This document shows, piece by piece, positions 8,417 through 32,527 of a DNA stretch of 37,471 nt (position 1 is its first letter; every line of letters starts with the position of its first letter). Position numbers and translations under genes: made by a program. The notes under the pieces were generated by a model. It searched no databases and was not told where the DNA came from. It saw nothing but the letters and a program-made list of their open reading frames with translations. Origin of the DNA: Methylotenera sp. (GTDB lineage Bacteria > Pseudomonadota > Gammaproteobacteria > Burkholderiales > Methylophilaceae); NCBI GenBank assembly GCA_005777825.1, contig SXLB01000083.1, positions 1 to 37,471 of the forward strand, in the 5' to 3' direction.

Positions 8417-9538
8417 TTAGGCGGGCACCGGCTTGGCGCGCAAGCGCAAATCCGCACCCAATTGCCTAACGTCTATAATCTGCATGGCTTGTGCTTGTGA
8501 CATGGTCTCATAGGCCGGCATGGCAAACATGGGTTGAGCCGTGCCACCCATCAGTTTGGCGGCATAGTAAAAAATGCATTCATCGATTAATTGCGCTTGC
8601 AAGAAAGCGCCATTTAAAGCCGAACCGGCTTCCAGTAAGACCTCATTCACCCCTAGCGTAGCCAAGTGGGTCATCAAGGCCGGCAAATCAACTTGGCCGT
8701 GCTTGTTAGGCATGGCTATTAAGCTTAAACCAGGGCGCTGTATTGCTTGTAGCTGGGCGGCATCGGCTTTGGCGTAGGCAATCAATACCGGGCCTGTTTG
8801 CAGGCTGGCTGCAGAGAGCATTTGGCAATCATGCGGCGTGCGCAATCGGCTGTCTACAATCACGCGTAGCGGTTGACGCGACAAGGCCGCCTTGACTATC
8901 TCAGGTGCGCGCACGGTCATACTGGGGTTATCTTGCAAGACCGTGCCTATACCGGTCACAATGGCGCAAGCCAAACCACGCCAATGCTGCACATCGGCCC
9001 TGGCTGCTTCCGCTGTGATCCACTGACTCAATCCGTTGGCTAAAGCCGTGCGGCCATCTAAACTGGCGGCCAGTTTAGTGCGCAAATACGGTCTATGCCG
9101 AGTCATACGCGAGACGAAACCGGGGTTTAAGGCTTGCGCTTGCGCCTCCAACAATCCCAGCTCAACGTCTATGCCCGCCGCCCGTAAACGCTGCATGCCC
9201 TGCCCGGCCACCAAAGGGTTGGGGTCTTGCATGGCCACCACCACACGCTTTACCCCGGCTTTTAGTAAGGCATCCACGCAAGGTGGCGTTCGACCAACGT
9301 GGTTGCATGGTTCCAGGGTAACGTAGACATCGGCACCGACTGCGGCCTCGCCTGCTTGATTTAATGCCAGCACTTCGGCGTGCGCTTGACCGGCTTTGAG
9401 GTGGGCTGCTTGACCCAGTATTTGATTGTTTTTCACCACCACGCAAGCGACCCTAGGGTTGGGTGCAGTGCTGTAATTACCCTGCTCTGCTAACTGCAGC
9501 GCAAGGGCCATGTAGGTGTGGTCAGCGATGGAAAACAC
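8417..9538 (-). CDS. ribD: Bifunctional riboflavin biosynthesis deaminase/reductase RibD
   Basis: RibD carries out the second and third steps of riboflavin synthesis: deamination and then NADPH-dependent reduction of the pyrimidine intermediate. At 373 residues it has the standard two-domain length. The deaminase zinc site is HAE at residues 53-55 with PCNHVGRTPPC (C78 and C87); the reductase domain begins near residue 150 with RTKLAASLDGRTA. The start is GTG at 9538, which gives the expected N-terminus close to DHTYMALAL; ATG codon 10 would remove conserved residues. No clear Shine-Dalgarno sequence precedes it. It lies 28 bases after the small membrane protein gene and 6 bases before tatD. 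ribE is not adjacent, unlike in many bacteria. Confidence 0.96.
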   Translation of the reverse strand: MFSIADHTYMALALQLAEQGNYSTAPNPRVACVVVKNNQILGQAAHLKAGQAHAEVLALNQAGEAAVGADVYVTLEPCNHVGRTPPCVDALLKAGVKRVVVAMQDPNPLVAGQGMQRLRAAGIDVELGLLEAQAQALNPGFVSRMTRHRPYLRTKLAASLDGRTALANGLSQWITAEAARADVQHWRGLACAIVTGIGTVLQDNPSMTVRAPEIVKAALSRQPLRVIVDSRLRTPHDCQMLSAASLQTGPVLIAYAKADAAQLQAIQRPGLSLIAMPNKHGQVDLPALMTHLATLGVNEVLLEAGSALNGAFLQAQLIDECIFYYAAKLMGGTAQPMFAMPAYETMSQAQAMQIIDVRQLGADLRLRAKPVPA

Positions 9539-12106: not shown

Positions 12107-13798
<1,692 letters not shown>

Positions 13799-29035: not shown

Positions 29036-32000
29036 ATGAGCCCTAGCGCATTACCCATCCCCAAACTCGGCCAGGCCACACGCGTGACCTTGAGCCATCT
29101 AGGTCAAGACGGCCATGCCTTGGCAGAACTGGCGCTGCAACTTAAACGCGCCGCGACGCCGCAAACCTTGGTCATCATCAGTGCCAACGGTTTTGATGCG
29201 CAGCGCTTGCTAGAGGAACTGCCCTACTTCGCGCCCGACTTAACGGTCAATTTATTGCCCGATTGGGAAACCCTGCCTTACGATCAGTTTTCGCCGCACC
29301 CGGATTTGATCTCCGAGCGTTTAACCACGCTATACCAAATCACGCAAAATGCCTGCGACGTCATCATTGTGCCGCTATCCACGGCCTTGATTCGCATTAG
29401 CCCGAAAGCTTATTTGAGTGCCAACACCTTTATGCTGAAAAAAGGCCAAAGGCTGGATACCGATGCGCTGCGTTTGCAATGCGCCGAAGCCGGTTACCAC
29501 CACGTCAGCCAAGTCATCAGCCATGGCGAATTCAGCGTGCGCGGGGGGTTGGTGGATTTATTCCCCATGGGTTCAGCCCTGCCTTACCGCTTGGACCTGT
29601 TTGACGATGAAATAGAAAGCATACGCACCTTTGATGTGGACACCCAGCGCAGCCTTTTCCCGGTGCCCGAGATACGCTTGCTGCCTGCTAGGGAGTTTCC
29701 GCTAGACGAAGCCGGCATCGCCTTGTTCCGTGGCCAGTTCCGCGAAACCTTTGAGGGCGACCCGCAACGCGCCAAAATCTATAAAGACGTCAGCAAAGGC
29801 ATCGCCAGTGGCGGCATAGAATGGTATTTGCCCTTATTTTTTGAGCACACCGCCTGCCTATTGGATTACCTTAATAGCCAGAGCGTGCTTTGCCTGCACG
29901 GTGACCTAGATCAAAGCGCGCAACAATTTTGGCGCGAGGCGCAAGCACGCTACAAAACCTTAGCACACGATGCCGAGCGCCCCTTACTGCCGCCAGAAAG
30001 CTTGCTGTTCAAAGCCGAGGACTTCTTTGCTAGCACCCATGCTTTTGCCCGCATCGCATTGAGCATAGACAGCCCATCCAACGGCTTGCCGGCTTTAGAT
30101 ATCGAACGCCGTGCCGAGCAGCCGTTACACAAACTGCAAGCCTACCTGGCCAACTTTACTGGGCGCGTATTAATCACCGCTGAAAGCTTAGGACGGCGTG
30201 AAACCATAGACCAACTGTTTAAGGAACAGGGCTTAAATCCTGCCTTGATAACAAGTTTTGCTGAATTTAGCGCTTCTAAAGAAAAATTCATGTTGGGCGT
30301 CAGCCCACTGCATCATGGCTACGTCATAACTAACCATGCTGCCCAAGCAGCTCAGTCGGTCGCCATAACCGCAGGGGGCATGTCCGACCGAATGGCCGCT
30401 AAAGCGGCTCAGTCGGTCGCCATTATTACCGAAGCGGAGCTGTATGCCGCCACCGTACGCCAACAGCGGCGACGTGAAAAAGAAAAAGCGCGCAGTACCG
30501 AGGGCATGCTAAAAGACCTATCGGAACTGCGCATGGACGACCCGGTGGTGCACGAACAACACGGCGTCGGCCGTTACAAGGGTTTGGTGAACATCGACTT
30601 TGGTGAAGGCGAAACAGAACTCTTGCTATTGGAATACTTTGGTGACGACAAATTGTACGTACCGGTTTCGCAATTATTCTTAATCTCGCGCTATTCAGGT
30701 GGACCGCCGGAATCGGCACCCCTGCATCGACTAGGCAGCGGCAATTGGGAAAAAGCCAAGAAAAAAGCCCTCAAGCAAATACGCGACACTGCCGCCGAAT
30801 TGCTCAATCTGTATGCGCAACGCGCGGCCCGACGAGGCCATGCCTTTACCTTAAGCTTGCAGGACTACGAAGCGTTCTGCGAGGGCTTTCCGTTTGAAGA
30901 AACCCCGGATCAATTGGAAGCGATTGAAAACGTCATCAAAGACATGCACTCCGTTCGCCCCCTGGACCGCTGGGTCTGTGGTGTCGTGGGTTTGGGTACA
31001 ACCGAAGTGGCCCTGCGCGCGGCTTTTGTGGCCGTCATGGGCGGCCGCCAAGTGGCAGTATTGGTGCCCACCACCTTGCTGGCCGAACAGCATTTTAATA
31101 ACTTCAAAGACCGCTTCAGCGCATGGCCCATCAAGATAGCCGAGATTTCCCGCTTTAGAACCGCTAAAGAACAAAAAGAAGCCTTAGCCGGCTTAGAGGC
31201 CGGTCAGATAGACATCATTATCGGCACCCACCGCTTGATACAAAAAGACGTCAAGTTTAAAAACCTAGGCTTGGTGATTTTGGATGAAGAGCACCGCTTT
31301 GGTGTGCGGCAAAAAGAACAACTCAAGGCCTTGCGGGCCGAGGTCGATGTCTTGACCCTGACGGCCACGCCCATTCCGCGCACCTTAAGCATGGCCATGG
31401 AAGGCTTGCGTGAGTTTTCCATCATCAGCACGCCGCCGCAAAAGCGCTTGAGCATCAAGACCTTCCATACCGATTATTCAGAGGGCATCATACGCGAAGC
31501 CGCCACACGGGAATTTAAACGCGGCGGCCAAGTGTATTTTCTGCACAACGAAGTGGACACCATCCATTCCATGCGGGAAAAACTCGAGCGCATCTTGCCC
31601 GATGCGCGCATTGCGGTAGCGCACGGTCAACTGCGCGAGCGCGAGCTGGAACACGTCATGCGTGACTTCTACAACCAGCGCTACAATTTATTGCTGTGCA
31701 CCACCATCATAGAAACCGGCATAGACGTGCCAACCGCTAACACCATCATATTGAATAAAGCCGATATGTTTGGCTTGGCACAAATGCACCAATTGCGCGG
31801 CCGTGTTGGCAGATCACACCATCAGGCTTACGCTTATTTGCTGACCGATCCCGACCGTAAAATCACCAGCCAAGCACAGAAACGCTTGGATGCCATCCAA
31901 CTGATGGAAGATTTGGGTGCCGGCTTCCATTTAGCCATGCACGATTTGGAAATTCGCGGCGCCGGTGAATTGTTAGGCGACAGCCAAAGTGGCGAAATGC

Positions 32001-32527
32001 AAGAGATCGGTTTTCACCTGTATTCCGACATGTTGAATCACGCCGTCAAGCAACTCAAAGCCGGCAAAGAACCGGATTTAAATGCACCCTTAGGCGTCAC
32101 CACGGAAATCAACCTGCACACGCCGGCCTTGCTGACCAACCAATATTGCCCAGATGTGCACGAGCGCTTGGTGATCTACAAGCGTTTAGCCAATTGTGAA
32201 AACGACGACGATTTGGATAGCATGCAAGAAGAACTGATAGACCGCTTTGGTTTGCTGCCTGAACAAGGCGAAGCGCTGATCGCTTGCCACCGCTTGCGTA
32301 TTGCGGCCAAGGCCATAGGCATCATTAAAATCGACGCCAGCAGTGAGGTCATACAACTGCAATTTAATCCCAAGGCCGACATCGACCCAACTAAGCTCAT
32401 AGACTTATTGCAAAGAGACAGGCGCTGCCGCATGAATGGGCCGGATAAATTGCGCGTGACATTGGCCTTGGCTGACATTACTCTACGCACTGATTTTGTA
32501 AAAAACCTCTTAAAGACCTTTAGATAG
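29036..32527 (+). CDS. mfd: Transcription-repair coupling factor Mfd, with altered Walker A motif and an in-frame insertion
   Basis: Mfd is a DNA translocase that removes stalled RNA polymerase and recruits UvrA to lesions. The 1,163-residue frame covers the whole family: UvrB-like N-terminus, RNA-polymerase-interacting domain (PVVHEQHGVGRY and KLYVPVSQL), RecG-like translocase motifs (VLVPTTLLAEQH, DEEHRFG, LTATPIPRTL, TTIIETGIDVP, RGRVGRSHHQAYAYLL) and the C-terminal domain. The Walker A motif, normally GDVGFGKT, is GVVGLGTT: residue 650 is V not D, 653 is L not F, and 655 is T in place of the ATP-binding lysine. About 25 extra residues with a repeated AAQSVAI lie near residues 435-463, just before the RNA-polymerase domain. 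Identity is certain; ATPase activity is doubtful. Confidence 0.97.
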   Translation: MSPSALPIPKLGQATRVTLSHLGQDGHALAELALQLKRAATPQTLVIISANGFDAQRLLEELPYFAPDLTVNLLPDWETLPYDQFSPHPDLISERLTTLYQITQNACDVIIVPLSTALIRISPKAYLSANTFMLKKGQRLDTDALRLQCAEAGYHHVSQVISHGEFSVRGGLVDLFPMGSALPYRLDLFDDEIESIRTFDVDTQRSLFPVPEIRLLPAREFPLDEAGIALFRGQFRETFEGDPQRAKIYKDVSKGIASGGIEWYLPLFFEHTACLLDYLNSQSVLCLHGDLDQSAQQFWREAQARYKTLAHDAERPLLPPESLLFKAEDFFASTHAFARIALSIDSPSNGLPALDIERRAEQPLHKLQAYLANFTGRVLITAESLGRRETIDQLFKEQGLNPALITSFAEFSASKEKFMLGVSPLHHGYVITNHAAQAAQSVAITAGGMSDRMAAKAAQSVAIITEAELYAATVRQQRRREKEKARSTEGMLKDLSELRMDDPVVHEQHGVGRYKGLVNIDFGEGETELLLLEYFGDDKLYVPVSQLFLISRYSGGPPESAPLHRLGSGNWEKAKKKALKQIRDTAAELLNLYAQRAARRGHAFTLSLQDYEAFCEGFPFEETPDQLEAIENVIKDMHSVRPLDRWVCGVVGLGTTEVALRAAFVAVMGGRQVAVLVPTTLLAEQHFNNFKDRFSAWPIKIAEISRFRTAKEQKEALAGLEAGQIDIIIGTHRLIQKDVKFKNLGLVILDEEHRFGVRQKEQLKALRAEVDVLTLTATPIPRTLSMAMEGLREFSIISTPPQKRLSIKTFHTDYSEGIIREAATREFKRGGQVYFLHNEVDTIHSMREKLERILPDARIAVAHGQLRERELEHVMRDFYNQRYNLLLCTTIIETGIDVPTANTIILNKADMFGLAQMHQLRGRVGRSHHQAYAYLLTDPDRKITSQAQKRLDAIQLMEDLGAGFHLAMHDLEIRGAGELLGDSQSGEMQEIGFHLYSDMLNHAVKQLKAGKEPDLNAPLGVTTEINLHTPALLTNQYCPDVHERLVIYKRLANCENDDDLDSMQEELIDRFGLLPEQGEALIACHRLRIAAKAIGIIKIDASSEVIQLQFNPKADIDPTKLIDLLQRDRRCRMNGPDKLRVTLALADITLRTDFVKNLLKTFR
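30345..30423. repeat. Direct repeat and imperfect palindrome inserted in frame within mfd
   Basis: Two copies of AAGCRGCTCAGTCGGTCGCC plus AT lie at 30345-30366 and 30402-30423, 57 bases (19 codons) apart, differing at one base. Between them 30380-30400 is an imperfect inverted copy of 30403-30423: GCCGCT pairs with AGCGGC, and CGACCGA (30385-30391) with TCGGTCG (30413-30419), with a small internal loop. The segment encodes the repeated AAQSVAI peptide, which has no counterpart in E. coli Mfd as I recall it. Confidence 0.8.

Follow-up and report, generated by a model that had tools for sequence, protein, structure and literature searches.

Mfd proteins of E. coli mutated at K634, the lysine of the Walker A motif GDVGFGKT, are inactive. 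K634 is not mentioned in the body of either PMC7864632 or PMC3025350, although a literature index counts one occurrence for the former, and in the open-licence literature, as far as its papers were accessible in part, we found no description of a natural Mfd with a dead motor site. There is a precedent of a kind within the same protein family. According to the sections of PMC3084762 available to us, a degenerate Walker A is found in the N-terminal UvrB-like module of Mfd from M. tuberculosis, B. subtilis and E. coli, and in this natural replacement of a Walker lysine those proteins resemble the one described here as it is assembled. They differ in the place of the change, at least on the available text of that paper: the degenerate site belongs to the N-terminal module, whereas the motor site considered here, in the C-terminal half, does not vary among the 109 other loci with which we compared it (these include the best 80 of at least 592).

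The gene occupies positions 29036-32527 on the forward strand of a 37,471-base window, which is the whole of contig C79 of its draft genome (G000; 1.36 Mb in 89 contigs, 83% complete). It is a full frame of 1163 amino acids with an ATG start, and its product belongs to the Mfd family by NCBIfam and Pfam matches alike: the curated equivalog cut-offs are passed for both TIGR00580 (1009.7 bits, cut-off 800) and NF007966 (1336.9 bits, cut-off 1329), and the domains UvrB_inter, MFD_D3, CarD_TRCF_RID, DEAD, Helicase_C and TRCF follow one another in the expected order. Genes with YhdP, CN_hydrolase and PmbA/TldD domains lie upstream, and a gene with a VTT domain lies downstream. In domain order, length, the motifs outside Walker A and, as far as the draft goes, single copy, this Mfd is the same as those of E. 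coli and of its own genus. The departure is that they have GDVGFGKT where the assembled gene has GVVGLGTT, together with four differing residues just before it.

That departure was the subject of a preliminary description of the sequence, and its factual core has held up. Codon translation gives GVVGLGTT at 30980-31003 on the forward strand, within an otherwise intact frame; the changed lysine, residue 655 here, is K634 of E. coli Mfd by alignment to PDB chain 6x26_A, where the row with GDVGFGKTEV ends at residue 637, which is that V. The lysine of GDVGxGKT, a marker of the active translocase, is therefore absent as assembled. The remaining SF2 motifs (PTTLLAEQH, DEEHRFG, TATPIPRTL, TTIIETGIDVPTANT and QLRGRVGRS) were read by eye in the translation, and partly in the 6x26_A alignment, and are intact, as is DEEH (Walker B, or motif II) at 31283-31294 on the forward strand in sequence, translation and alignment. 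A second intact mfd, which had been raised as something that would make the change irrelevant, was not found in the draft genome, where a copy in the missing part is possible at 83% completeness. The Mfd of the window is the sole match above the TIGR00580 cut-off in this draft, and the remaining matches to an Mfd query are short and weak, at 33 and 25.5 bits; we take the weak matches on contigs C71 and C15 to be putative PriA-like (C71) and UvrB-like (C15) sequences.

Two other protein families may be mentioned in passing. UvrA is represented in the draft by an N-terminal fragment (C36:3127-3783, 361.7 bits) reaching the end of its contig, which is 3,785 bases long, and besides this fragment no match of the family above 34 bits was found in the draft genome. 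The draft also has no RecG-like match, and at least 47 of the 51 other genomes of the genus have one at 34-37% identity; the gene may simply lie in the missing 17% of the genome.

How unusual the assembled Walker A is becomes clear from the other Mfd loci. Among the 51 other genomes of the genus that were searched, the 29 best-matching ones were read at the site (the rest include fragments and genomes without an Mfd-level match), and all 29 have GDVGFGKT. A sister genome with the intact motif had been named in advance as evidence against a real variant, and at the level of species all 29 genomes read supply it. The comparison was extended to a set made of these 29 loci and the best 80 of at least 592 confirmed stretches; some of the latter are probably the genus assemblies already read, so that the resulting 109 counts loci and not independent genomes. 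Beyond the two best matches to the Mfd locus, the next ones listed are from Methylopumilus, Methylotenera and Methylobacillus, at 72-78% identity, and from these names the source is probably a methylotroph of the Methylophilaceae. There were 112 loci in the alignment, of which two weak matches, L002 and L003, do not reach the Walker A site. GDVGFGKT is found in 109 of the 109 other loci that cover it.

The Walker loop is only part of what has changed. Codon by codon, the gene was compared with those of three relatives, G005 (96% protein identity), G007 and G016, and of a more distant congener, L007. The comparison reveals a patch at 30949-30999 on the forward strand with seven differences in 51 bp, at positions 30949, 30954, 30962, 30972, 30984, 30994 and 30999. 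Every one of the seven is a single-base transversion, is nonsynonymous and is private to this gene against the four relatives. They alter residues 638, 640, 643, 646, 650, 653 and 655, the first four of which lie shortly before GVVGLGTT, and they bring in no stop or indel, so the frame stays intact. Six of the seven are A/C or G/T swaps and five change A:T to C:G. Five of these positions (residues 643, 646, 650, 653 and 655) never vary among the 109 other loci, whereas residue 638 is variable and at residue 640 Gly is found in 98 loci. Not one of these 109 loci, which again include the best 80 of at least 592, has any of the seven residues of the patch. Silent differences shared with at least one relative persist inside the patch, at bases 30955, 30961, 30979 and 30991, which indicates that the template was the strain's own gene and no imported piece. 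The patch is thus private among the genomes read, made of transversions only, amino-acid-changing and mostly at invariant sites, and it is laid over ordinary silent variation.

One could also suppose that the patch was copied from a different P-loop sequence or from a repeat close by, through gene conversion or a templated switch. Apart from the clustering of the changes nothing speaks for this. The bases between the changes agree with the mfd of the relatives, and when the 28 patch words of 13 bases that contain at least two changes were compared with 1.85 Mb of G000 and G005 stretches, a search that covered about half of G000, two overlapping words matched at one place, where 1.5 matches were expected by chance. 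We regard such copying as very improbable.

The changes are unusually concentrated. The helicase part of the gene has 669 codons that are also present in G005, G007 and G016. Of the 18 that fall in the patch, 7 are private and nonsynonymous, as against 5 of the other 651 (Fisher 2e-9, an optimistic value because the patch was picked after being seen); in the three relatives, taken in the order just given, the corresponding totals over all 669 are 0, 1 and 5. Densities over the window were judged from about position 13,590 on, where at least two relatives are aligned, the first 13.6 kb being aligned to G005 only. From there on, there are 322 private transitions and 144 private transversions. 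Transversions account for 7 of the 8 private differences in the patch and for 137 of the 458 outside (chance 0.001), and no other run of private transversions is as dense as the patch, which has 7 within 60 bp where the next separate run has 5. The share of A/C and G/T swaps, 6 of 7 in the patch and 72 of 137 among the other private transversions of the window, is an excess that is not significant (P 0.08).

These counts change the meaning given to the locus in the preliminary description. The three base differences reported there are present, yet they are only part of the seven private transversions. Their packing had been taken to make a single error unlikely; it points rather to a single bad read or read tail, since the low-quality parts of reads can contain clusters of miscalls, as described in the portions of PMC3334598 that we could consult, and of the three options then offered an error is now the favoured one. 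The beginning of gene decay predicts scattered changes, and the 5 of 651 codons outside the patch do not fit it. A binding-only Mfd would need a single change, whereas here there are seven, some of them outside the Walker loop. Selection on the protein is an unlikely cause: a single substitution would be enough to abolish the ATPase, and decay would leave its marks along the whole gene.

If a binding-only Mfd had been selected, ATP hydrolysis would have been given up in favour of a regulatory function on RNA polymerase or UvrA. The domains that contact these two partners, CarD_TRCF_RID and UvrB_inter, are present, and an N-terminal fragment of UvrA is there at the end of contig C36. The changes at residues 643, 646 and 653 would, however, have been needless, the seven residues are absent from the 109 other loci (best 80 of at least 592 included), and the other translocation motifs were read intact, although later drift would be expected to have reached them. 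We consider a selected loss of this kind hardly credible.

Most probably, the patch is one run of bad base calls that was carried into the consensus. This reading rests mainly on the clustering, the privacy, the transversion-only spectrum with its chance of 0.001 and the indifference to constraint; a patch that is private, clustered (7 in 51 bp) and blind to the function of its codons has the look of an error patch. There are parallels for it in the accessible text of PMC3334598, where A/C swaps (29.2%) and G/T swaps (26.8%) are the most frequent substitutions of HiSeq data, and where a region dense in errors vanishes after low-quality tails are trimmed. The clusters in such Illumina tails are like the mfd patch, as far as that text describes them, in being substitutions only, tightly packed and mostly A/C and G/T. 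Unlike them, the mfd patch sits in an assembled consensus. A GG motif, which according to the part of PMC4787001 available to us is frequent before Illumina errors and not required for them, is mostly absent here: it fits 1 of the 14 contexts of the patch, that is, seven sites on two strands. It also counts against an error that the draft genome does not look generally error-ridden, that the frame has stayed open and that the excess of A/C and G/T swaps falls short of significance. We picture a single low-quality read, or the tail of one, that would have become the consensus at a thinly covered spot; both the origin in sequencing or assembly and the thin coverage are inferred. The real Mfd of the cell would then be a normal ATP-driven translocase, one that strips stalled RNA polymerase and recruits UvrA. 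On the sequence comparisons made here, the biological claim of a disabled Mfd is not supported, and a local sequence error is the likely explanation. If so, the locus is a warning not to conclude from a draft consensus that a catalytic residue has been lost, and it suggests a useful test for errors: are the private changes clustered, are they all transversions, and do they ignore codon constraint?

The most serious rival is a real patch, left by one local burst of mutation, such as error-prone synthesis over a short gap or damage by oxidised bases, that produced seven transversions and an ATPase-dead Mfd with its frame intact. Such an Mfd could at most bind RNA polymerase or UvrA, with no translocation, and in this small genome the gene would only just have begun to decay. 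Oxidised dGTP gives A:T to C:G changes, and five of the seven changes are of this type. The frame is indeed intact and the protein otherwise conserved, and the genome is small, at 1.36 Mb and 83% completeness, when many congeners have 2.5-3.3 Mb. Two of the 51 other genomes of the genus, G025 (80% complete) and G040 (95% complete), have no Mfd-level match and instead a weaker helicase-type match at 35% identity, which we take to be RecG; mfd may thus have been lost in parts of the genus, and it is possible that it is dispensable here. On the other side, it would take an unusual event to make seven changes at once, five of which hit invariant sites, and the result would also have had to become dominant in the sampled population, and the close flanks have no private nonsynonymous codons. 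We think a burst improbable, if less so than the copying and the selected loss discussed above. A real burst would provide a natural counterpart of the laboratory Walker A mutants, with an ATPase-dead Mfd motor, and would be a case of such mutation caught fresh.

The genome was searched for other patches by comparing 61 stretches of G000 (686,173 bases) with 62 of G005, which gave 477,667 aligned positions. N bases make up 5,423 of the 686,173, which are two whole contigs. There are 110 open frames with at least four codons carrying nonsynonymous transversions within 60 bp, among which mfd comes third when they are ordered by a rough score, the size of the cluster minus the changes in its flanks. 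Judging 14 of these 110 candidates, we saw over the 477,667 positions no other patch of this kind that lay in a conserved frame and had quiet flanks, and that nothing alike turned up in these 478 kb weighs against a burst and against an error alike. The two frames above mfd were set aside: L248 has stops in the relative, and the cluster of L262 falls within the opening 64 bp of a stop-to-stop frame and was judged to precede the real start. Altogether, the 13 other candidates were judged to be near the end of a frame, in a frame that is itself doubtful, or flanked by many changes. One look-alike, L232 at 8734-8775, is probably upstream of the real start as well, since most of the listed matches to its frame begin near residue 43, past the cluster.

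Two smaller features of the gene are worth pointing out. The linker between the D3 and RID domains varies strongly in length among the 29 genus loci that were read. In the window, positions 30338-30423 of this linker form an in-frame stretch shared with G005, and within it the window has the 17-mer GCTCAGTCGGTCGCCAT twice, 57 bp apart; G007 is without a 19-residue piece of it, and the linker of G016 is shorter and different. The 17-mer was considered as a dispersed element, but with up to 2 mismatches it has only two occurrences in the draft genome, both of them in mfd, so that the word appears to have been duplicated locally. Further upstream, at 29543-29548, a run of G is extended by private silent changes to G, one in each of two adjacent glycine codons; these changes are possibly another small miscall, harmless to the protein.
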